NCBI GenBank assembly: GCA_003251955.1
Contig: QKDV01000272.1
Span: 1-10,454, forward strand
From: Methanospirillum hungatei
GTDB lineage: Archaea > Halobacteriota > Methanomicrobia > Methanomicrobiales > Methanospirillaceae
Length of the DNA: 10,454 bases
Direction of reading: 5' to 3'
Shown here: piece by piece, positions 1 to 10,454 of the stretch
How the letters are laid out: every line of letters begins with the position of its first letter
How positions within the stretch are numbered: the first letter of the stretch is position 1
Notes under the pieces: model-generated
What the model was told of the DNA's origin: nothing
The model's database searches: none
The model's input: only the letters and a program-made list of their open reading frames with translations
Made by a program: the position numbers and the translations under genes

Positions 1-1271
1 TGCTCTATGATCAGGCTCTGAACGCGTATGCATACACTATTGCCTGGCAGATCACTCTGGATCCACTGATGCGAAATGTAGCAGAGGAATGCCTACAATA
101 TATCTGTCAGACCCTCAAACAGCCAGGTGGCGGGTTTGCATCGGCAGAGGATGCTGACAGCCCTGACGGGGAGGGTGCGTATTACCTCTGGAATCACCAT
201 GAGCTCAAAGAGATATTGACCACTGAAGAGTTGAATATCGTTGAGAATATCTGGGGAATTACAGAAGATGGCAATGTAACACGAGAAGTAGGTATTCCTC
301 CAGGGAACAATATCATCACATGGGTAAGGGAGAGGAATGACGCACTTTCGGTACCAATGGATTCCCCACTGATAGAGGAAATAAGAAAAAAACTCCTTAC
401 CCACAGGGAAATGCGGCCTCGACCCCTGCTTGATGATAAAGTTCTGACTGACTGGAATAGCCTTGCTATCGGAGCCCTCACGTATGCAGGAAAAGTTCTG
501 GAAGATGAATGGATGATCCGTGCTGCTGAAGAGGCTGCAGCATTTCTTCTAAAGGTTATCTACACTGAAAAGGGAGAACTCTGGCACCAGTGGAAGACTG
601 GTATGGCAACTATTCCCGGGACGGCACAGGATTACATCTTCCTTGTATCTGGATTAATTAGTCTTTTTCAGGCGACCGGAAAATCTGCTTATTTAAAGAA
701 TGCAGTGATGATCACAAGTACTGCCATTTCTCTGTTCTGGGATAAAAATATAGGGGGATTCTATGCGACTCGTTCTGATGATCCTCTGGTTCCAATCAGG
801 ATTCGTGATGATTTTGACGGCGCTGTTCCATCTGTGAACGGACTTGCCTGCCAGGTTCTCAGGGATCTTGGACTGATAACTGGCATTAGTGAATTCACAG
901 ATCGGTCTGAGAAACTTCTGAATGGAATGCATGAAACGATCACCCGTGTACCACTTGGAACTCTCAGTTTTTTTAACACTGTGTGCGGTGGTAGAAAAGA
1001 AATACGTGCGGTAATTACTGGGGATGTCGGAGATGAACGCAGAATTGCACTATGGAGAATATTACATCAGCGATATATTCCAGGGCTTATTGTGGTTCCT
1101 CTAATTCCCGACTGTATTTCAGAAATGAAGAATATGGTACCTGAATCAGATACCTACTATGTTCAGGGAGATACTCCTGCTGTGTGGATCTGTGCTGGAG
1201 AGACCTGCAGGCCACCGGTCACAGACCCGAAGGTCCTCTCAGAACTTCTGGATCAGATCACACATTCTTAA
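1..1271 (+). CDS. DUF255/YyaL-family (SPATA20-like) protein, C-terminal part
   Basis: Partial gene entering from the left edge. The frame is open from base 3, with 22 codons before the first ATG at 69; these encode a MLYDQAL-like stretch (LYDQALNAYAY) diagnostic of this family, so 69 is not the true start. About 422 residues are visible. Family landmarks follow in order: GGGFASAEDADS (about residues 42-53), LTDWNSLAIGAL (about 148-159), a DFDGAVPSVNGLA segment, and the C-terminal CAGETCRPPVTDP segment, whose two cysteines lie four residues apart. In this family an N-terminal thioredoxin-like DUF255 domain precedes an (alpha/alpha)6 barrel related to glycoside-processing enzymes. The thioredoxin part should lie off the window. 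The biochemical role of the family is not established, so no substrate is proposed. The stop codon lies inside the end of the convergent downstream gene. Confidence 0.9.
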   Translation, partial: LYDQALNAYAYTIAWQITLDPLMRNVAEECLQYICQTLKQPGGGFASAEDADSPDGEGAYYLWNHHELKEILTTEELNIVENIWGITEDGNVTREVGIPPGNNIITWVRERNDALSVPMDSPLIEEIRKKLLTHREMRPRPLLDDKVLTDWNSLAIGALTYAGKVLEDEWMIRAAEEAAAFLLKVIYTEKGELWHQWKTGMATIPGTAQDYIFLVSGLISLFQATGKSAYLKNAVMITSTAISLFWDKNIGGFYATRSDDPLVPIRIRDDFDGAVPSVNGLACQVLRDLGLITGISEFTDRSEKLLNGMHETITRVPLGTLSFFNTVCGGRKEIRAVITGDVGDERRIALWRILHQRYIPGLIVVPLIPDCISEMKNMVPESDTYYVQGDTPAVWICAGETCRPPVTDPKVLSELLDQITHS

Positions 1272-1935: not shown

Positions 1936-2883
1936 ATGAGCCGGCGCATAACACTGATTATACTGGTAATTCTTCTGCAGATTTTTATCACTCTTGTACT
2001 TGTACCTGCAACTGCTGATAGCATACAGGATGCGACAATCTGGGCTAACAAAGGGAAAGCACTTGCTGAAACAAAAGATTATCTCGGAGCAATGGCGGCG
2101 TATGATCAGGCACTTCAGCTTGATGCTTATTATGCCGAAGGATGGAAACTCCGGGGCGATGCTCTTATGGCACTTGAGAGATATGCAGAAGCAGCAGACT
2201 CATATGATCGTGCGATCAGCATTGACAAAACTAATGCAGAGATAGTCGGGAAAAAGGGACGCGCACTATACATGCTTGGGAAATATCGCGATGCCCTTGA
2301 GACTTATGATCGTGCCGTATCGCTCAACCCGAATGTATTTCTGAACCTTGATGGTAAGGCTGATGTTCTGGCTGCCCTGAATAGGTACTCTGAGGCTGAT
2401 TCGATGTACGATGCAGCCCTGAAGATAGATCCGCGAAGCAATGCCACTTGGAATAAAAAGGGACTTACTCTTGCCAAGATGTTTAAAAATGAAGAAGCAG
2501 CAGAAGCGTTCAATCAATCTATAACGATATATCCGGAATCTGCAGAGGTCTGGAATAATATGGGAAGTGCCTATTTCAACCAGGGAAAGATGAAAGAGGC
2601 GCTTAAAGCATTTGAACAGGCAATTTCCCTTGATGAAAGTTATATCCCCCAGAAGTACGGGGACACACTTACAAGACTTCAGCAGGATAAACTGGCGTCT
2701 ATCCAGGAGACTCAAGAGAATAGTTCTGACCAGACGACCAATGCTGCCCCTGTTGAAATTAAACTGCCTCCACCGATATTTCTAATAAACTATCTTATGA
2801 TCGGTATTGGTATCCTTTCAATTATGGTGCTCGGCGCAGTAAGGGTGTTCAAGACAAGGAAAAGGAAGCGGGAGATCAAGTAG
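1936..2883 (+). CDS. Membrane-anchored TPR protein with N-terminal signal sequence
   Basis: 315 residues. Residues 1-28 form a signal peptide or signal anchor (RR near the start, a long Ile/Leu/Val run, then VPATADS). Residues 33-236 are six consecutive tetratricopeptide repeats of exactly 34 residues with no gaps, each with the W/G/Y...A..Y..A......P pattern. A polar Ser/Thr/Gln-rich spacer follows (about 245-275). Then come a Pro-rich turn, one transmembrane helix (about 281-303) and a basic KTRKRKREIK tail. The predicted topology is TPRs outside the cytoplasmic membrane, held by the C-terminal helix with the basic tail inside. TPR arrays mediate protein-protein contacts; the partner is unknown. 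The gene stands alone on the plus strand, divergent from the PNPOx gene and convergent with korB (8 bp overlap). Confidence 0.88.
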   Translation: MSRRITLIILVILLQIFITLVLVPATADSIQDATIWANKGKALAETKDYLGAMAAYDQALQLDAYYAEGWKLRGDALMALERYAEAADSYDRAISIDKTNAEIVGKKGRALYMLGKYRDALETYDRAVSLNPNVFLNLDGKADVLAALNRYSEADSMYDAALKIDPRSNATWNKKGLTLAKMFKNEEAAEAFNQSITIYPESAEVWNNMGSAYFNQGKMKEALKAFEQAISLDESYIPQKYGDTLTRLQQDKLASIQETQENSSDQTTNAAPVEIKLPPPIFLINYLMIGIGILSIMVLGAVRVFKTRKRKREIK

Positions 2884-3721
2884 CCTTTTCCAGAATCTTT
2901 TTCACGATAACACCACGATCAACCTCTTTTTGAATCTTCTTCTCAGGAAGTACCGGTTTTCTGGTCTGGAAAAAGATGCCGATTGGTATTTTGGTATCAT
3001 CGTTGTAATTCCACTGCTTTGCAGTCCTACAGGCAAACTCGAACAGTCCTGCGTTTGACTCGTTTGTCTCGTAAACCCGTTCATCGTACCACGTGGTAGC
3101 ATTAAAGAAGGATGCACAGATCTGAAGAACATCGACATGTGCAAATCCCTGGTGCATAATCGCTTCTTTAAAGATACGTTTCAGGTGAGGCAGCCTTCTC
3201 GTGTACGCCCGTGAGACAAATGTGGCACCTGCACCAAGGAGCAGTTCAATGATGTTGAGCGGGTACTCATGAAGACCATTGGGAGTTGATTTCCCCTGGT
3301 ACCCGTATGGCGAAGTAGGAGTATACTGGCCGGTGGTGAGGCCATAGACCCTATTGTTGTGACAAATGACCGTGATGTCGAGATTTCGCTTTGCAGCATG
3401 AATAAGATGATCAAGACCTTCTGCATAGAGATCCCCGTCCCCAGCAAAACAGATAACCTTCAAATTTGGGTTTGCCATCTTGATGCCGGTGGCAACCGGG
3501 ATAGTCCTCCCATGCAGCGAGTAAAAACTATTCAACTGGAAGTAATCAGCGATCTTAGCGTGGCATCCGATTCCTGATACCAGGACGAAATGATCACGTG
3601 CCATCCCTTCAGCCTCAAGTTCTTGGATCACGAACTTCATCGCATGCTGGATAGCGAAATTTCCACAGCCTGGACACCATGTGTTTTGTGTCTGGGTAAC
3701 AATTGTCTCGTCGCTCGTCAT
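2876..3721 (-). CDS. korB: 2-oxoacid:ferredoxin oxidoreductase, beta subunit
   Basis: 281 residues, the usual length for the stand-alone beta subunit of two-subunit 2-oxoacid:ferredoxin oxidoreductases. This cytoplasmic enzyme binds thiamine diphosphate and converts a 2-oxoacid plus CoA to acyl-CoA, CO2 and reduced ferredoxin, or the reverse. WCPGCGNFAIQ (15-25), GIGCHAKIADYF (50-61) and the ThDP/Mg motif GDGDLYAEG...NN (94-123) are clear. C16, C19, C53 and C202 match the four ligands of the [4Fe-4S] cluster in this subunit. The start ATG overlaps the korA stop as ATGA (3718-3721), so the two are probably translationally coupled. The substrate (2-oxoglutarate, pyruvate or a branched-chain oxoacid) cannot be assigned, so korB is used in the loose annotation sense. 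Confidence 0.93.
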   Translation of the reverse strand: MTSDETIVTQTQNTWCPGCGNFAIQHAMKFVIQELEAEGMARDHFVLVSGIGCHAKIADYFQLNSFYSLHGRTIPVATGIKMANPNLKVICFAGDGDLYAEGLDHLIHAAKRNLDITVICHNNRVYGLTTGQYTPTSPYGYQGKSTPNGLHEYPLNIIELLLGAGATFVSRAYTRRLPHLKRIFKEAIMHQGFAHVDVLQICASFFNATTWYDERVYETNESNAGLFEFACRTAKQWNYNDDTKIPIGIFFQTRKPVLPEKKIQKEVDRGVIVKKILEKAT

Positions 3722-5364
3722 GAGGCAACCCTCCGTACCCGCTCAACCAGTTCTTCGACAGCAAATGGTCTCCCATCATATCGCAGGATCAGTTCATCAG
3801 TTCTGTATCCTTCACGTGCCAGAACCTTATCGAGCTGGCCTGTCGAACTATCCTCGACAAGGATTACTTTCTCAACTCCCTGCATTGATCTTCTGAATTC
3901 ACCTGCTGGGAACGGGGAGAGCACGACCGGAGATACCAATCTTAAACCTAGTTCATCTGCAACCTCACTGCAGACACCACGGGGAGAGCCCCAGCATAGT
4001 ATCGCAGTTTTTGCCTTAACTGATCCACCACAGACGACCGCTCCTGGCTGGTCAGTCATGGTTGCTAGTTTCTCAGCCTTTCTGAGTCGTTTCTGCACCA
4101 TAGCAACGGTCATCTCCGGATCCTCAGAGGTGATCCCTGAATAGTCATGCATATAACTGTTTACCTTAACCACCTCTCCACTGTACGGAGGAACGAGGAT
4201 CGGTGATACTCCGTCAGGAGTGTCTGCATACCGTTTGTACGGATATGAGGGGGCAGGAAGAGGAGTTGTCGCCCTGATCTCGGGTTCGGCTTCAGGAGTA
4301 TAGATCCCCTCTGAGAACGTCTTATCTGAAAGGATGAATGTTGGAATCTGCAGTTTCCATGCGAGTTGAACTGCCTCGGCTGCCCACCAGAATGCTTCCA
4401 GAGGTGTTGCAGGGGCAGCGATAAACCTTGGAAATTCACCTTGACCTGCGTGACAAGTAAACAGGAGATCTGACTGAGCTGTATATGTGGGAAGGCCGGT
4501 TGAAGGGCCTCCCCTCTGAGAGAGCACAATAACGATCGGAAGTTCTGCCATTCCTGCAAGTGAGACCCCTTCAGTCATAAGACAGAATCCTCCACCTGAT
4601 GTTCCAACTGCAGTCTTCTTTCCTGCATACGCAAACCCGAGTGCCATCAGAATGACTGCAATCTCACTTTCAGGATGGACAACATCGATCCCGGCTTCGT
4701 CAGCAACTGAAGCGAGAAAATGAAGGACTCCTGATGAGGGTGTCATCGGGTATGCAACATACGCATCGATGCCCCCGGCAAGAAGGCCGAGGCCTATCCA
4801 TTCATTTCCTGAAAGAAGAGGTCGGGGAGAGGCTCCTTCAACCGGCTGAACACTGATACAGCGGGTGATGCGGGAGTATGCTTCGCGAGCGATCAGAAGA
4901 TTGAGATCAGTCTCTTTAGGCAGTTTCTTCCTGATAACTGCCTCAACAAGACTCCAGGGAATACCGACACATCCACAGAATCCTCCCACCATCGCTGTGT
5001 TGCCCATGATTGGTCTGCCTTTGTACTGGGCAAGGATTTCATTAATGGCAAGAGCCTGCCCTTCGGACTTAACCTTGGGGCTGTCATATATCACAGTCCC
5101 CTGGGTTGTAAGGTTATGAATGTGCAGATCAGCGGTCTTCTGATCAAGGGCAAGGATCAGATCAACACCGGTCCTATGGGTAAACACCGGTTTTTCTGCT
5201 GCCCTGATAATACAAAAGTTATGGCCGCCCCTGATCAGTGACGGGTAGTCAACATACTGGTAGACATAATAACCAAGGTCAGAGAAGATCGATGCTATCA
5301 ACTGACCAGCCTGTGCTATTCCATCTCCTGCTTTTCCCCCAATGAGGACAGAGTATTCAGTCAA
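3718..5364 (-). CDS. korA: 2-oxoacid:ferredoxin oxidoreductase, fused gamma-alpha subunit
   Basis: 548 residues from the preferred start. The N-terminal ~180 residues are the gamma domain (SVLIGGKAGDGIAQAGQ at the start, YPSLIRGGHN). The rest is the alpha/pyrimidine-binding part, with the CoA/substrate motif YPMTPSS (about 205-211; the usual form is YPITPSS), TSGGGFCLMTEG, and RGGPSTGLPT (284-293). A C-terminal domain (about 440-548) carries VILVEDSSTGQL. It pairs with KorB; no ferredoxin-like delta subunit is adjacent. For the start, TTG at 5364 has GGAGG (5373-5377) eight bases upstream and gives MTEYSVLIGG. The upstream GTG at 5379 would add five residues and lacks a well-placed site. A possible TATA box at 5404-5409 suggests transcription independent of arsC. 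Confidence 0.93.
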   Translation of the reverse strand: MTEYSVLIGGKAGDGIAQAGQLIASIFSDLGYYVYQYVDYPSLIRGGHNFCIIRAAEKPVFTHRTGVDLILALDQKTADLHIHNLTTQGTVIYDSPKVKSEGQALAINEILAQYKGRPIMGNTAMVGGFCGCVGIPWSLVEAVIRKKLPKETDLNLLIAREAYSRITRCISVQPVEGASPRPLLSGNEWIGLGLLAGGIDAYVAYPMTPSSGVLHFLASVADEAGIDVVHPESEIAVILMALGFAYAGKKTAVGTSGGGFCLMTEGVSLAGMAELPIVIVLSQRGGPSTGLPTYTAQSDLLFTCHAGQGEFPRFIAAPATPLEAFWWAAEAVQLAWKLQIPTFILSDKTFSEGIYTPEAEPEIRATTPLPAPSYPYKRYADTPDGVSPILVPPYSGEVVKVNSYMHDYSGITSEDPEMTVAMVQKRLRKAEKLATMTDQPGAVVCGGSVKAKTAILCWGSPRGVCSEVADELGLRLVSPVVLSPFPAGEFRRSMQGVEKVILVEDSSTGQLDKVLAREGYRTDELILRYDGRPFAVEELVERVRRVAS

Positions 5365-5372
5365 TCGTTCCG

Positions 5373-5377
5373 CCTCC
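5373..5377 (-). promoter_or_regulatory. Shine-Dalgarno site deciding the korA start
   Basis: GGAGG on the minus strand, 8 nt before TTG at 5364. It lies inside the longer reading frame that would begin at GTG 5379, and so favours the TTG start. Confidence 0.5.
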
Positions 5378-5403
5378 ACGGGGAGATCTCTGCTCCTGAT
5401 CTC

Positions 5404-5934: not shown

Positions 5935-6501
5935 ATGAGAGTCCTTGCAATATCGGGCAGTCCTCAAAAGAATGGAAACACTAGCAGACTGATAAACGTA
6001 ATCGTGAGAGATCTCGAAAAGAGTGGTATTGCAGATCTGAAGATAAGGGAGATATCCCTTGCTGGTTGTTCAATTCGCCCGTGTAAATCCTGCCGTAAGT
6101 GTATGAAGGAAGGGTACTGTGTCCTGCGGTCTGATGATTTTTCCAAGATTGCCCGCAGGATGAAGAAGAGTGATCTGATCATCATTGGCTCTCCTGTTTA
6201 TTTCCACGATGTGAACGGGCAGATAAAGAACCTGATTGATCGTTCGTATTCCCTCTGGCATGAGCGGCAGTTGAAGGGTAAGAAAGTGATCCCTGTTGCC
6301 GTCTGTGCAGAAAGTGGCGACGATCGTGCACTTGAAACCCTTAAACTCTGGGCACAGGCACAGGATATGAAGATCATCAGATCAGTGAGTGGTCACGGAT
6401 TCAAGGCTGGTGAGGTACTTAAGGATGAGTCAGCAATGAAACTTGCTGATGAGGCAGTAAGGGCCGTTTCTGGTGAGGTTAAACCCGGAAACATCAGTTA
6501 A
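5935..6501 (+). CDS. Iron-sulfur flavoprotein (Isf-like, NADPH-dependent FMN reductase family)
   Basis: 188 residues with a flavodoxin-like fold. SGSPQKNGNTSRL (7-19) is the FMN-phosphate loop, and IIIGSPVYFHDVNGQIKNLIDR (82-103) is the second flavin-contact segment. Between them, C50-x2-C53-x2-C56-x5-C62 is the compact cysteine motif that binds a [4Fe-4S] cluster in Isf, first studied in Methanosarcina thermophila. Isf is a cytoplasmic electron carrier that takes electrons from ferredoxin and has been linked to O2/H2O2 detoxification in methanogens; the physiological partner here is unknown. An additional C45 lies just before the motif. The gene is divergent from arsC and may share a promoter element with it. 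It is convergent with ppx, overlapping by 8 bp. Confidence 0.9.
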   Translation: MRVLAISGSPQKNGNTSRLINVIVRDLEKSGIADLKIREISLAGCSIRPCKSCRKCMKEGYCVLRSDDFSKIARRMKKSDLIIIGSPVYFHDVNGQIKNLIDRSYSLWHERQLKGKKVIPVAVCAESGDDRALETLKLWAQAQDMKIIRSVSGHGFKAGEVLKDESAMKLADEAVRAVSGEVKPGNIS

Positions 6502-8092
6502 ATCTATGAACAGATTCTTGGCCGGCATCTGAAGATGGTAAGACCTCGATCTTCAATCCTTTCTTCATCGTTCGTTCGAAGGATCTGATATCCCCGAGGA
6601 TTGCCCATTGTTCAAGGGAACAGTCAGAATTACATTCTAGTGCGAGGGTGATCTTGCGGCGTTCAGTTGCCAGAAGTTGAGCATGGGTCACCCTCCCATC
6701 ATGACTCCTGTCCAGGTTTTCTGCCATTCTAAGAAAAACTGAAAGGATCTGTACCATCATCTTGTCGTCATCATTTAAATGCCCATACAACTGATCTTTC
6801 CCGCGCGGCATTTTTTTCCGATGATACCTGGTGACAAGTGCAATGATCAGTATCTCATGCTCATTAAACCCAAGAAGGGTAGCGTGAGTTATCACATAGA
6901 GTGAGTGCTGTTGATGGGCGGGAAATGAGATAAACTGCCCGATGTCGTGAAGAATTGCTGCGTATGAAAGGAGTTCCCGGTCTGTGTTAGGAAGGTTGTG
7001 AAGTCCTGCCTCACGTGCTGAATCAAACAGGGAGAGCGCCAGATCACGGACATGGTTGGCATGTGGTTCATTGATATGACATACCCTTCCGAGGTGTTTG
7101 ATACTGGCCATCCTGATCGGCTCCTGTTCGGCGAAGGGGAATCCGGGGATACGCGAGAGGTAATCAACAAGCAGCCCATCTCTTAAACTTCTTGAAGATA
7201 CCTGGATCTCAGAAATGCCTGTCTGTTCAAGCAGTGAATTAAGAATTAGTGCCCCGGCAATGATGATATCAGCACGATCCGGATTGAGACCCTGGACATT
7301 TCTTCGTTCTTTAAGGGGGAGAGAACATAGGTGGGTGATAACTTCTGACAACTCGGTTCTTGTTATTACACCTTCCCTGTGAGGGGCCGCCGAGTTGTTC
7401 ATTCCGGCTGCAATCGCTTCAAGTGTTGAAATAGTCCCTGAACTACCAAATGCCTGCTGGACCTTTTTACTTTTTACATTTCTGATTGTATGTAGTGCCC
7501 TGCTGCGGATGTGTTTCTGAATCACCAAGACCGTCTGGAGTGGGATGGGATCGGTCATGTCTGGTGGAATATAAGTATTGGTGGTCCTGATTGCTCCGAG
7601 TTTCAGACTTCTGAGCAGAAAAGCTTCAAACTGATCTCCAACGATAATCTCGGTACTTCCCCCCCCTATATCAATAAACAGGGACTTTGTCTTCCCGATC
7701 TTAACCCCACTTGAGACACCGAGCCATATAAGCCTGGCTTCTTCAGGTCCTGATATTACATTGAGTTCAAAACCCGCCTCTTCCCGGATTCTGGTGATCA
7801 GAGCGTCACGGTTTCGTGCATCACGTGTTGCAGAGGTGGCAACTGCTACGATCTCTGTCGCCCCGAAACTTCGGGCAACCTCGGCAAACCGGGAGAGAAC
7901 AATAACTGTCCTGTTTATAGCATCAGGTGTGAGTATATTTTCAGCAAACCCCCCCTCTCCTAACCTCACGACCTCCTTCTGTTGAGTCAGTACAGAGTAG
8001 GAGCAGTTCGGGTTCAGCCTGATGATTAAAAGCCTTGCAGAGTTTGTTCCAAGATCGATAAATGCAATTACGTTGTGCTTGTTCGGCTCCAT
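6494..8092 (-). CDS. ppx: Ppx/GppA-family exopolyphosphatase with C-terminal HD domain
   Basis: 532 residues from ATG 8092. The N-terminal actin-like phosphatase part has the first phosphate loop IDLGTNSARLL (about 12-22), the SGPEEARLIW segment with the catalytic Glu region (about 114-123), the second loop DIGGGSTEI (141-149) and FGSSGTISTL (about 215-224). From about 320 onward there is an HD-type helical domain: ILHDIGQF (H382-D383), RYHR (about 423-426), LDRSH (460-464). This matches long Ppx/GppA enzymes that remove terminal phosphate from polyphosphate or hydrolyse pppGpp. Polyphosphate is favoured here because of the CHAD neighbour. A GTG at 8110 would add six residues; ATG 8092 matches the family, which starts just before the first loop. 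The start overlaps the upstream HD gene by 25 bp. Two long G runs (on the coding strand) lie at 7659-7666 and 7949-7955, the former in the DIGGGS codons. Confidence 0.92.
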   Translation of the reverse strand: MEPNKHNVIAFIDLGTNSARLLIIRLNPNCSYSVLTQQKEVVRLGEGGFAENILTPDAINRTVIVLSRFAEVARSFGATEIVAVATSATRDARNRDALITRIREEAGFELNVISGPEEARLIWLGVSSGVKIGKTKSLFIDIGGGSTEIIVGDQFEAFLLRSLKLGAIRTTNTYIPPDMTDPIPLQTVLVIQKHIRSRALHTIRNVKSKKVQQAFGSSGTISTLEAIAAGMNNSAAPHREGVITRTELSEVITHLCSLPLKERRNVQGLNPDRADIIIAGALILNSLLEQTGISEIQVSSRSLRDGLLVDYLSRIPGFPFAEQEPIRMASIKHLGRVCHINEPHANHVRDLALSLFDSAREAGLHNLPNTDRELLSYAAILHDIGQFISFPAHQQHSLYVITHATLLGFNEHEILIIALVTRYHRKKMPRGKDQLYGHLNDDDKMMVQILSVFLRMAENLDRSHDGRVTHAQLLATERRKITLALECNSDCSLEQWAILGDIRSFERTMKKGLKIEVLPSSDAGQESVHRFN

Positions 8093-8697
8093 AGAACATC
8101 TATCCGGCACCCGGTTACATGGCTCAGGAGGGCTGATTTCTTCATGAGTACCTGGGTCTCCGGCTCAGGGATATGATCATCTGTAGTCATGCAATTGATT
8201 TGAATGACTCCCTCTCCAGTACGAACAGATAATTCCTGTACAACAGAACGATGGGATCGGTCGAGAGCATCGGCGAGGCGCAGAATGCCTGCAGACCAAC
8301 AGACCTGCCTCTTCTGATCATCAGATAGTCTGTTAAATGCTGAATGGGATGGATTGGGTTCTGCCCTCCTGTGATACCTGGCTATCTGGGCCACAATCAG
8401 ACGTTCTAAAGGAGTCAGGGGGAGCGTAGTATCAGCGAGTATAATGTCCATGGATGCCTTGTGATGTGGGCGTGACGGTTCACTCCATCCGATATCATGC
8501 AGAAGAGATGCCACCATGAGAAGTCGTCGCTCTGGCTCTCCCATGCCGTGAAGTCTGGCAAGGAGATCAAACAACAATCCTGCCAGACGCTCCACCTGGA
8601 GAGCGTGGGGATTGTCGGGATCGTAACGTTTCATGAGTGCTAGAGCCGATCCGGCATCAGGCTCGTTTGAAAAATCTATAGAACCTTCCTGATTCAT
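8068..8697 (-). CDS. Stand-alone HD-domain protein related to the Ppx C-terminal domain
   Basis: 209 residues. Putative metal ligands follow the HD pattern: H31 (NPHALQVERLAGLLFD), H67-D68 in SLLHDIG, H78/H79, H108 in ARYHRR, and D143/D146 in LRLADALDRSH. The order and wording of these segments follow the HD part of the neighbouring Ppx closely (HDIG, RYHR, LR.A..LDRSH, then a beta-strand tail), so it looks like a free-standing duplicate of that domain. A hydrolytic or a regulatory/polyphosphate-binding role are both possible; HD domains usually act on phosphate esters. The start ATG overlaps the stop of the CHAD-phosphoesterase gene as ATGA (8694-8697), and the 3' end runs 25 bp into ppx, so the three genes are almost certainly one transcription unit. 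Confidence 0.88.
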   Translation of the reverse strand: MNQEGSIDFSNEPDAGSALALMKRYDPDNPHALQVERLAGLLFDLLARLHGMGEPERRLLMVASLLHDIGWSEPSRPHHKASMDIILADTTLPLTPLERLIVAQIARYHRRAEPNPSHSAFNRLSDDQKRQVCWSAGILRLADALDRSHRSVVQELSVRTGEGVIQINCMTTDDHIPEPETQVLMKKSALLSHVTGCRIDVLWSRTSTT

Positions 8698-10454
8698 GGC
8701 CTATCACGTGATTCCTGGACCGCATCCAGGGATCTCCCTTCCCTGACGATCCGTGCGAATGCATCAGGAAGGTGGCGGTGCCGTATTGCCTTAACTGTAC
8801 GTTCGATCTCGTAAGGAACCCTGATATGAATAATAGAGAAGGGATCAACTGTAAGGATAGCATAACAGGCACGGGGATCTCCATCTTCAGGCCTGCCAAC
8901 ACTTCCTGCATTGATGAACCAGACCCCGTCCACTTCACGTGCTGCAGCTCTGTGGGAATGCCCGGTGATGATCACCTTCCCATCCTGCGCCGCTGCGATC
9001 TCATACAGCCTGGTATCAGGAGTTCCATAATCAAGGTACTCTGTCACTGAATCCGGGCTTCCATGTGTGAGGATAAGTGGGATGCCACGTACACACATGC
9101 GAATCTTCCTGGGGAGACCGGCAAGCCAGATCCGGTTCTCGCTTGAGATCTGGTGATATGCCCATCTCATCGCCAGTTGTTTCTCGCGTGATCTTGGCTT
9201 TCCTTTCTTCCACTTTCTGGAAAGGACTGAAATGTCGTAATTTCCAATGACACTTATGATATGTCTCTCTCTGAAAAGGTTGATGACTTCATCAGGGAAT
9301 GGTCCGTAACCGGTTAGGTCTCCTGCATGAAGAACCACAGATGCTCCTCTTATCTGCGCATCAGCAAGAACTGCTTCAAGTGCAGGAAGGTTGGCATGCA
9401 CATCACTGATCAGTGCTATTGTAAGAGGCCCTGTCTGGTCTGAATCTTTGTCTCCTTTAAATGAATGCTGAAGTGGTAGTGAGATCTTCTCTGAGAACCT
9501 GTCCCAAAATTCCCCCTCCTTCACCTCTTCCCAGTATTTGGCAAGGTCTCTGAATTGAGCTGCCCGGTTATTTGCCCGATCTTCTCTGAGGGTGTTGATG
9601 CCCGGTTTCAGAAGCTCGAAAAACCCATGATTTCCGAAGTAGGCAGCCGAGCGTTCCTCCTCTTCTTCAAGAAACCGTGGCAGCATTCCGGTCCAGACAT
9701 CACAGTCATGGATATCACCGAGAAGTTCCTGAAGGTGTTTGATCACCTTGATGTCTGGTTTTAGGCTGTCCTCATAGAGGCCTGCATAAGCCTCAAGTGT
9801 GTATCTGAGCCGTTTTGCAGCGATACGCATCTCATGATGCTGCTCAATCCGGGATGAGTCTTGAAGATATGGTTCGAACCAGAAGAGATCAGATACCCTG
9901 GCCATGATCTGCATAAAAGCATGCTCGTAGGTCTGAACCCGGTGGACACCTGTTCCTTCAAGCATCGCCCTGACTTTTAGATCATGGAGACTGCCTGCCA
10001 TGTCATGAATAATCCTGCTCCTGATAAAGTCAGATACACCCGCTGCAACATCTGCTTGCATCACTTTCCTTTTCTGGATCAGCCTAAGCAGGAGACATTC
10101 GAGCCCTGGAACAATAGGATCAGATGGCTGGTACATGTCGATCTCACCGGCTGAAGGTCGGGGAGTGTCAATTGCCTCTTCCCTTTCTAAATCGGCCTTC
10201 TTCTGTTGGAGGATCTGGTGTTTTTCGAGCCAGGAACAAACCCGGTCTCTGACTGAGTGAGGTGTTTTGCGATTATCCTGTCGTGAAACCAGTGCAGTTG
10301 TTGTGTTCACCGGTAATGTCTGAAGAGGCTCTGCTGGTGAGAAGAGGTGAACTCTGGTTTTAGTTTCAGGACTACATTCTGCAAGAAATGAACGGACAAA
10401 CTCGATCTGTACATCAAGATCGCGTGCTTCACCAAGCGATCGTGTCAGTCTGCG
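8694..10454 (-). CDS. CHAD domain fused to calcineurin-like metallophosphoesterase (N-terminus off window)
   Basis: The frame is open to the right edge: 48 in-frame codons precede the GTG at 10310. They encode RRLTRSLGEARDLDVQIEF, the end of the first helical repeat of a CHAD domain, so GTG 10310 is not the start. 586 residues are visible. The second CHAD repeat has HHEMRIAAKRLRYTLEAY (about 206-223) and LQELLGDIHDCDVW (about 241-254). CHAD domains bind polyphosphate through their basic residues. After a charged linker, a metallophosphoesterase domain starts near 345: SDVHAN (D351, H353), GDLTGYG (D379), GNYD (N405), THGS (H464), GHSH (H499, H501). All expected metal ligands are present. The usual GNHD histidine, normally the acid helper, is tyrosine (Y406). 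No signal or transmembrane segment is seen in the visible part. The role is inferred as polyphosphate-directed phosphodiester or phosphoanhydride cleavage. It is the first visible gene of the operon with the HD protein and ppx. Confidence 0.88.
   Translation of the reverse strand, partial: RRLTRSLGEARDLDVQIEFVRSFLAECSPETKTRVHLFSPAEPLQTLPVNTTTALVSRQDNRKTPHSVRDRVCSWLEKHQILQQKKADLEREEAIDTPRPSAGEIDMYQPSDPIVPGLECLLLRLIQKRKVMQADVAAGVSDFIRSRIIHDMAGSLHDLKVRAMLEGTGVHRVQTYEHAFMQIMARVSDLFWFEPYLQDSSRIEQHHEMRIAAKRLRYTLEAYAGLYEDSLKPDIKVIKHLQELLGDIHDCDVWTGMLPRFLEEEEERSAAYFGNHGFFELLKPGINTLREDRANNRAAQFRDLAKYWEEVKEGEFWDRFSEKISLPLQHSFKGDKDSDQTGPLTIALISDVHANLPALEAVLADAQIRGASVVLHAGDLTGYGPFPDEVINLFRERHIISVIGNYDISVLSRKWKKGKPRSREKQLAMRWAYHQISSENRIWLAGLPRKIRMCVRGIPLILTHGSPDSVTEYLDYGTPDTRLYEIAAAQDGKVIITGHSHRAAAREVDGVWFINAGSVGRPEDGDPRACYAILTVDPFSIIHIRVPYEIERTVKAIRHRHLPDAFARIVREGRSLDAVQESRDRP

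Follow-up and report, generated by a model that had tools for sequence, protein, structure and literature searches.

The window, a stretch of 10,454 nucleotides from Methanospirillum hungatei, makes up the entire contig C149, which comes from a MAG with a completeness rating of 67%. It contains three overlapping genes on the minus strand. The first (8694..10454) is an open frame with 586 amino acid residues present that fuses a CHAD domain to a metallophosphoesterase (MPE). Its 5' end lies beyond the contig end, and hence part of the CHAD domain is missing in the window. The second gene (8068..8697, minus strand, 209 aa) begins with an ATG that shares bases with the fusion gene's stop codon (ATGA). 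It encodes an HD-domain hydrolase (Pfam Ppx-GppA_III, 55.3 bits; HD, 36.5 bits) that resembles domain III of Ppx/GppA proteins and has the HD, HHK, H and D motifs. This gene in turn overlaps a Ppx/GppA exopolyphosphatase-type gene (6494..8110, minus strand, 538 aa; Pfam Ppx-GppA, 224.3 bits; domain III, 112.6 bits), whose product scored 272.6 bits against the NCBIfam model exo_poly_only, under the cut-off of 307. The overlaps suggest that the fusion, HD and ppx genes share one transcript. The original prediction had the fusion encoded with an exopolyphosphatase; the ppx gene is present in the cluster, but the HD gene between the two had been omitted. The PPK1 found in this genome sits on another contig (C94). 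Elsewhere, the window carries a 2-oxoacid:ferredoxin oxidoreductase pair (2876-5379, minus strand), composed of a fused POR/POR_N subunit and a TPP-binding subunit according to Pfam, and a 422-aa open frame (3-1271, plus strand) that is truncated by the contig start and is without a Pfam match at E 0.001.

The CHAD domain (9681..10454, minus strand) spans residues 1-258 and covers positions 60-227 of the 228 in the Pfam profile (E 7e-27), its 95.3 bits lying well above the curated cut-off of 25.6 bits for PF05235. The MPE domain (8844..9422, minus strand) occupies residues 345-537 and was recognized as Metallophos_2 (E 4.5e-24; profile positions 2-152 of 154); with 85.6 bits against a cut-off of 27 and a full two-metal ligand set, it affiliates with the calcineurin-like MPE family PF12850. 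The domain has each of the seven metal ligands expected (D351, H353, D379, N405, H464, H499 and H501), and motif III reads GNYD instead of GNHD or GNHE. The 28 residues after motif III (9150..9233, minus strand) form a K/R-rich segment with nine K/R and one D/E. By a manual count along the printed alignment, the polyphosphate (polyP) contacts R296, R418 and Y419 of CtCHAD correspond to R11 (10422-10424), R217 (9804-9806) and Y218 (9801-9803) on the minus strand of the window, while the equivalents of H253, R256 and R260 lie beyond the contig end. Among the matches listed, the closest relative with a complete chain is P0001 (669 aa), which starts 83 residues earlier and has 84% identity along the full length of the query. 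Long conserved matches across both domains in database proteins rule out a frame-shift or a chance open reading frame. The predicted union of a CHAD domain and a metallophosphoesterase with a complete ligand set in one frame is real and, with the corrections given here, is confirmed.

When the fusion was compared with 5.8 billion proteins, 929 matches at E <= 0.001 were obtained among 8000 scored candidates. Each of the 120 matches listed of these 929 combines CHAD with a metallophosphoesterase domain, and among those listed the names given by the sources are mostly from Methanomicrobiales. Hence, the architecture is not new to the databases, which label it 'CHAD domain-containing protein', 'putative phosphoesterase' or 'YfcE family phosphodiesterase'. 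Among 150 genomes of the order Methanomicrobiales, 61 had a match and 78 had PPK1, with neither in 72. PPK1 was present in all 61 genomes with a match versus 17 of the 89 without one (Fisher p 9e-27, a value that ignores kinship and is descriptive only). In 28 of the 33 fusion rows from these genomes, PPK1 was located within 6 kb of the fusion, always upstream and on the same strand; it is usually the next gene, with about 1.5-1.8 kb between the two in L073 and L081. The five fusion rows without PPK1 nearby were the window and G090, both at contig ends, together with G047, G077 and G149, the last being the only other genome searched from the genus of the window. PPK1 was also within 6 kb in 24 of 29 CHAD-only rows, a tally that includes the split match of G130, though its locus (L102) is a fusion. 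In some Methanomicrobiales two ppk1 genes stand in tandem directly upstream of the fusion gene (L082, 11903-14068 and 9838-11913; L085, 12170-14422 and 10020-12173).

Gene order was read in 75 named and fetched loci and in 40 more with profiles built from the proteins of the window and one PPK1. Four arrangements of the modules were seen (CHAD-MPE, CHAD-HD, MPE-HD and CHAD-MPE-HD), and in most cases ppk1 or ppx lay next to them. The order in Methanomicrobiales is ppk1-[CHAD-MPE]-HD-ppx. Of 23 fusion loci, 17 had Ppx and 19 had PPK1 in the fetched stretch; 11 had HD as a frame of its own, the script having counted a twelfth in L102 that resembles the tail of a broken ppx and was set aside. In Methanoregula, all seven named loci (L025, L026, L028, L029, L032, L033 and L035) have a CHAD-HD fusion in the slot between ppk1 and ppx, and MPE is absent from the locus. 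In Planctomycetota and Deltaproteobacteria, CHAD directly precedes an MPE-HD fusion in all ten named loci of that type, and seven of them have PPK1, which is located upstream in L006 and downstream in the other six. A CHAD-MPE query was used to obtain these loci, and the pairing of CHAD and MPE is therefore partly a matter of choice, whereas the fusion to HD and the presence of PPK1 are not. CHAD and MPE are neighbours in L009 and L016, both from a phylum which we take to be Chloroflexota, and L210 has the order ppk1-HD-MPE with no CHAD in view. All three modules form one chain in P0109 and P0113. Among loci of other archaeal families obtained with an MPE-only query, L217 and L218 encode such a CHAD-MPE-HD chain directly after PPK1, L219 and L220 have the order ppk1-CHAD-x-[MPE-HD]-ppx, and L221 and L222 show [MPE-HD]-ppx on short contigs. 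As a control, 20 stretches were picked among the matches listed of the MPE-only query, 19 with a GNHD motif and one with GNYD (L240); CHAD, HD, Ppx or PPK1 occurred in none of the fetched stretches of the 19 archaeal GNHD-type standalone MPEs. The recurrence of the same modules in differing orders and fusions across phyla is hard to explain without a common substrate or complex.

Residue conservation was assessed in an alignment of 107 of the 120 listed proteins, from which ten sequences under 580 aa and P0059, P0070 and P0089 were left out. The six CtCHAD contacts (H253, R256, R260, R296, R418 and Y419), which mutation has shown to be important for polyP binding (PMC6537752), are all kept in 101 of the 107 relatives, and the seven metal ligands are complete in 105. 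After the GN of motif III, a tyrosine is found in 80 of the 107 and a histidine in none; GNYD is likewise read in all 119 standalone close relatives. In a quick tree of 71 rows (365 MPE stretches thinned at 72% identity to 93 and then randomly sampled), the 58 non-His rows formed one side of a branch with an SH-aLRT of 95, the MPEs fetched later without polyP genes nearby being outside this tree. Loss of the histidine as a signature of polyP linkage was rejected in view of those MPEs: 13 of the 14 loci from the phyla of G150 and G152 were without a polyP gene nearby, and 12 of these 13 read GNYD. The loss therefore marks a wider group. A separate subfamily of standalone GNYD MPEs without polyP genes in the fetched stretch was observed in the phylum of L009 (L203-L208 and L211-L213); its members have in common a segment like GVGFDxxDCGCAY.

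The basic segment after motif III appears more telling for polyP linkage than the lost histidine. On average, these 28 residues carried a net charge of +6.4 in the linked MPEs (n = 50) and +8.8 in the standalone close relatives of unread genomic context (n = 14; the contexts of P0121-P0239 were left out of the reading), versus -0.2 in the GNHD/E-type paralogs (n = 32) and -1.0 in the non-His MPEs with no polyP gene nearby (n = 14). A charge of at least +4 was reached by 43 of the 50 linked MPEs, one of the 32 paralogs, two of the 14 unlinked non-His MPEs and all 14 standalone relatives. The two unlinked exceptions are L214 (+9, on a 6-kb contig) and L215 (+4), and the seven linked MPEs below the threshold include P0074 and P0102 at -6 and -7. 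The segment was spotted before it was measured and related rows inflate any p-value; L209 was skipped in this comparison, its motif III being unreadable.

We consider it rather likely that the fusion gene encodes a CHAD-tethered polyphosphatase, a judgement that covers endo-cleavage and cleavage at chain ends alike. The action on polyP put forward in the original prediction is supported by ppk1 near 28 of the 33 fusion rows, the shuffling of modules, the conserved polyP-contact residues and the basic segment, and is, from these sequence data, probable; endo-cleavage is plausible. Going by the literature on CHAD domains from other proteins, long polyP would be bound by the CHAD half, and genomic context and residues suggest that CHAD and the basic segment hold a chain whose phosphoanhydride bonds are hydrolysed at the two-metal MPE site. 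Under endo-cleavage, the likely role of the MPE would be to release shorter chains that are finished by Ppx. In many members of the MPE superfamily the motif-III histidine donates a proton to the leaving group. A phosphate leaving group needs little protonation, which makes the loss of this histidine compatible with a polyP substrate. Inclusion bodies of M. hungatei JF-1 have been identified as polyP granules (PMC11346949), and in a published survey no archaeon gave a significant hit for an endopolyphosphatase (PMC6864096). For Haloferax volcanii, a Mn- or Co-dependent polyP-degrading activity that releases phosphate and has characteristics unlike those of known enzymes was described in 2026 (PMC13318637); the words CHAD and phosphoesterase are both absent from the text of that paper. 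In the open-licence literature on CHAD, YfcE and archaeal or prokaryotic endopolyphosphatases, no title among those listed proposes a polyP role for the CHAD-MPE fusion.

One alternative overlaps with the favoured reading as a sub-case, namely that the MPE is an exopolyphosphatase or short-chain polyphosphatase which, like the TTM domain of ygiF, takes phosphate or pyrophosphate from chain ends. Nothing in the sequence separates endo- from exo-cleavage, and ygiF, the known CHAD-fused polyphosphatase, is a short-chain enzyme (PMC6537752). We nevertheless regard this alternative as doubtful, given that an exopolyphosphatase-type gene is already present in 17 of the 23 fusion loci and that the polyP-binding site of CHAD domains runs across a central pore (PMC6537752), an arrangement that suits long chains.

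The simple endo/exo pair originally predicted has its Ppx-type gene in the cluster but leaves no room for the HD hydrolase, which is fused to MPE or CHAD in several lineages. Among 18 standalone HD rows, HDxG was read in 14, HHK in 12 and the last D in 11; the corresponding counts among ten MPE-HD rows were 10, 9 and 8. The HD frames of L073, L078 and L089 had no readable HD motif (L073 and L078 were read via the same genes in L040 and L004). In the C-terminal domain of Ppx, by comparison, the last motif has E in all 19 readable rows of 43. Since the HD ligand motifs are mostly kept while the Ppx domain has E, the cluster may have in the HD protein another hydrolase, or even its main one. It is conceivable on these grounds that the HD protein is the polyP hydrolase and that the MPE acts on another substrate, e.g. 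a nucleotide such as Ap4A or (p)ppGpp that is made or consumed alongside polyP, with CHAD only placing the protein on the granule; the CHAD-HD fusion without MPE that fills the same operon slot in Methanoregula points in this direction. Such a division of labour is nonetheless unlikely, as the basic segment is located in the MPE, HHK is absent from all 15 CHAD-HD rows, and the f6 group (L082, L086 and L104) lacks a separate HD gene and keeps CHAD-MPE, flanked by PPK1 and Ppx.

There are observations against a polyphosphatase as well. The MPE is dispensable: it is absent from the Methanoregula loci, and ligands are lost in L054, L089 and L088. The fused MPEs of L054 (G071) and L089 (G053) are without several metal ligands and that of L088 (G117) is without the motif-III asparagine; all three are candidate pseudoenzymes, with PPK1 upstream of the fusion in each genome. 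A granule scaffold or regulator (phosin), with CHAD as a coat on polyP and an MPE that is either vestigial or a phosphatase for a partner protein, e.g. PPK1, would agree with the ligand losses in L054 and L089, with the lack of the domain in other lineages and with the localization of Ralstonia CHAD proteins to polyP granules (Tumlirsch and Jendrossek 2017, as cited in PMC6537752), but is quite improbable because the seven ligands are kept in 105 of the 107 aligned relatives, unlike in a vestigial domain, even if these 107 are among the closest relatives and may flatter the family.

Extending the polyphosphatase reading beyond the window, we tentatively propose, as a possibility we hold with less confidence than that reading itself, a prokaryotic class of endopolyphosphatases, motif-distinct from Ppn2, whose genes in archaea, Planctomycetota, Deltaproteobacteria and presumably Chloroflexota stand between those for polyP synthesis and those for exo-degradation. 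In this class CHAD would thread the chain, the His-less, basic-loop MPE would cut it and the HD hydrolase would act alongside, the three forming one polyP-processing machine with interchangeable parts. Should the fusion cut polyP, it would be a candidate enzyme for methanogens that store polyP granules, a calcineurin-like enzyme would join the prokaryotic polyP toolkit, and a function would be at hand for a protein already detected in a Methanospirillum proteome.

That protein, Mhun_2988 of Methanospirillum hungatei, is described as a metallophosphoesterase with CHAD detected by proteomics (PMC9275234) and is the probable ortholog of the fusion in the window. The same paper ties CHAD to metal chelating, and the word polyphosphate is absent from its text. 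Filing the fusion under YfcE (TIGR00040) was rejected, its 52.1 bits against the NCBIfam yfcE model being below the cut-off of 56.25. The best Pfam match of the MPE is Metallophos_2; among solved structures, the family profile matches 3rqz best by sequence (E 2.3e-39). Both 3rqz-type MPEs and the fusion have the motif G[SA]VGxPxDGDPRA in common; 3rqz, however, has GNHD as motif III, and no basic segment is seen at the aligned position.

Ppn2 and the ApaH-like phosphatases belong to the calcineurin-like two-metal superfamily. The fusion resembles this eukaryotic endopolyphosphatase in that superfamily and in the polyP substrate proposed for it, and the likeness to Ppn1 and Ppn2 originally suggested holds at the superfamily level only. 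The Ppn2/ApaH-like PPP motifs 1-4 are given as GDxHG, GDxxDRG with K for R (GDxx-neutral-K-G), GNHE and HGG (PMC8220851), whereas the MPE of the window reads SDVHA, GDLTGYG, GNYD and HGS, so that by eye none of the four is matched and an assignment to Ppn2 was rejected. CHAD itself has been described as a module that binds polyP and raises the activity of the polyphosphatase ygiF (PMC6537752). Like the fusion, ygiF and the TTM-CHAD polyphosphatases join a catalytic phosphohydrolase and CHAD in one chain; in ygiF a triphosphate tunnel metalloenzyme stands N-terminal to CHAD, whereas in the fusion a calcineurin-like MPE stands C-terminal to it.
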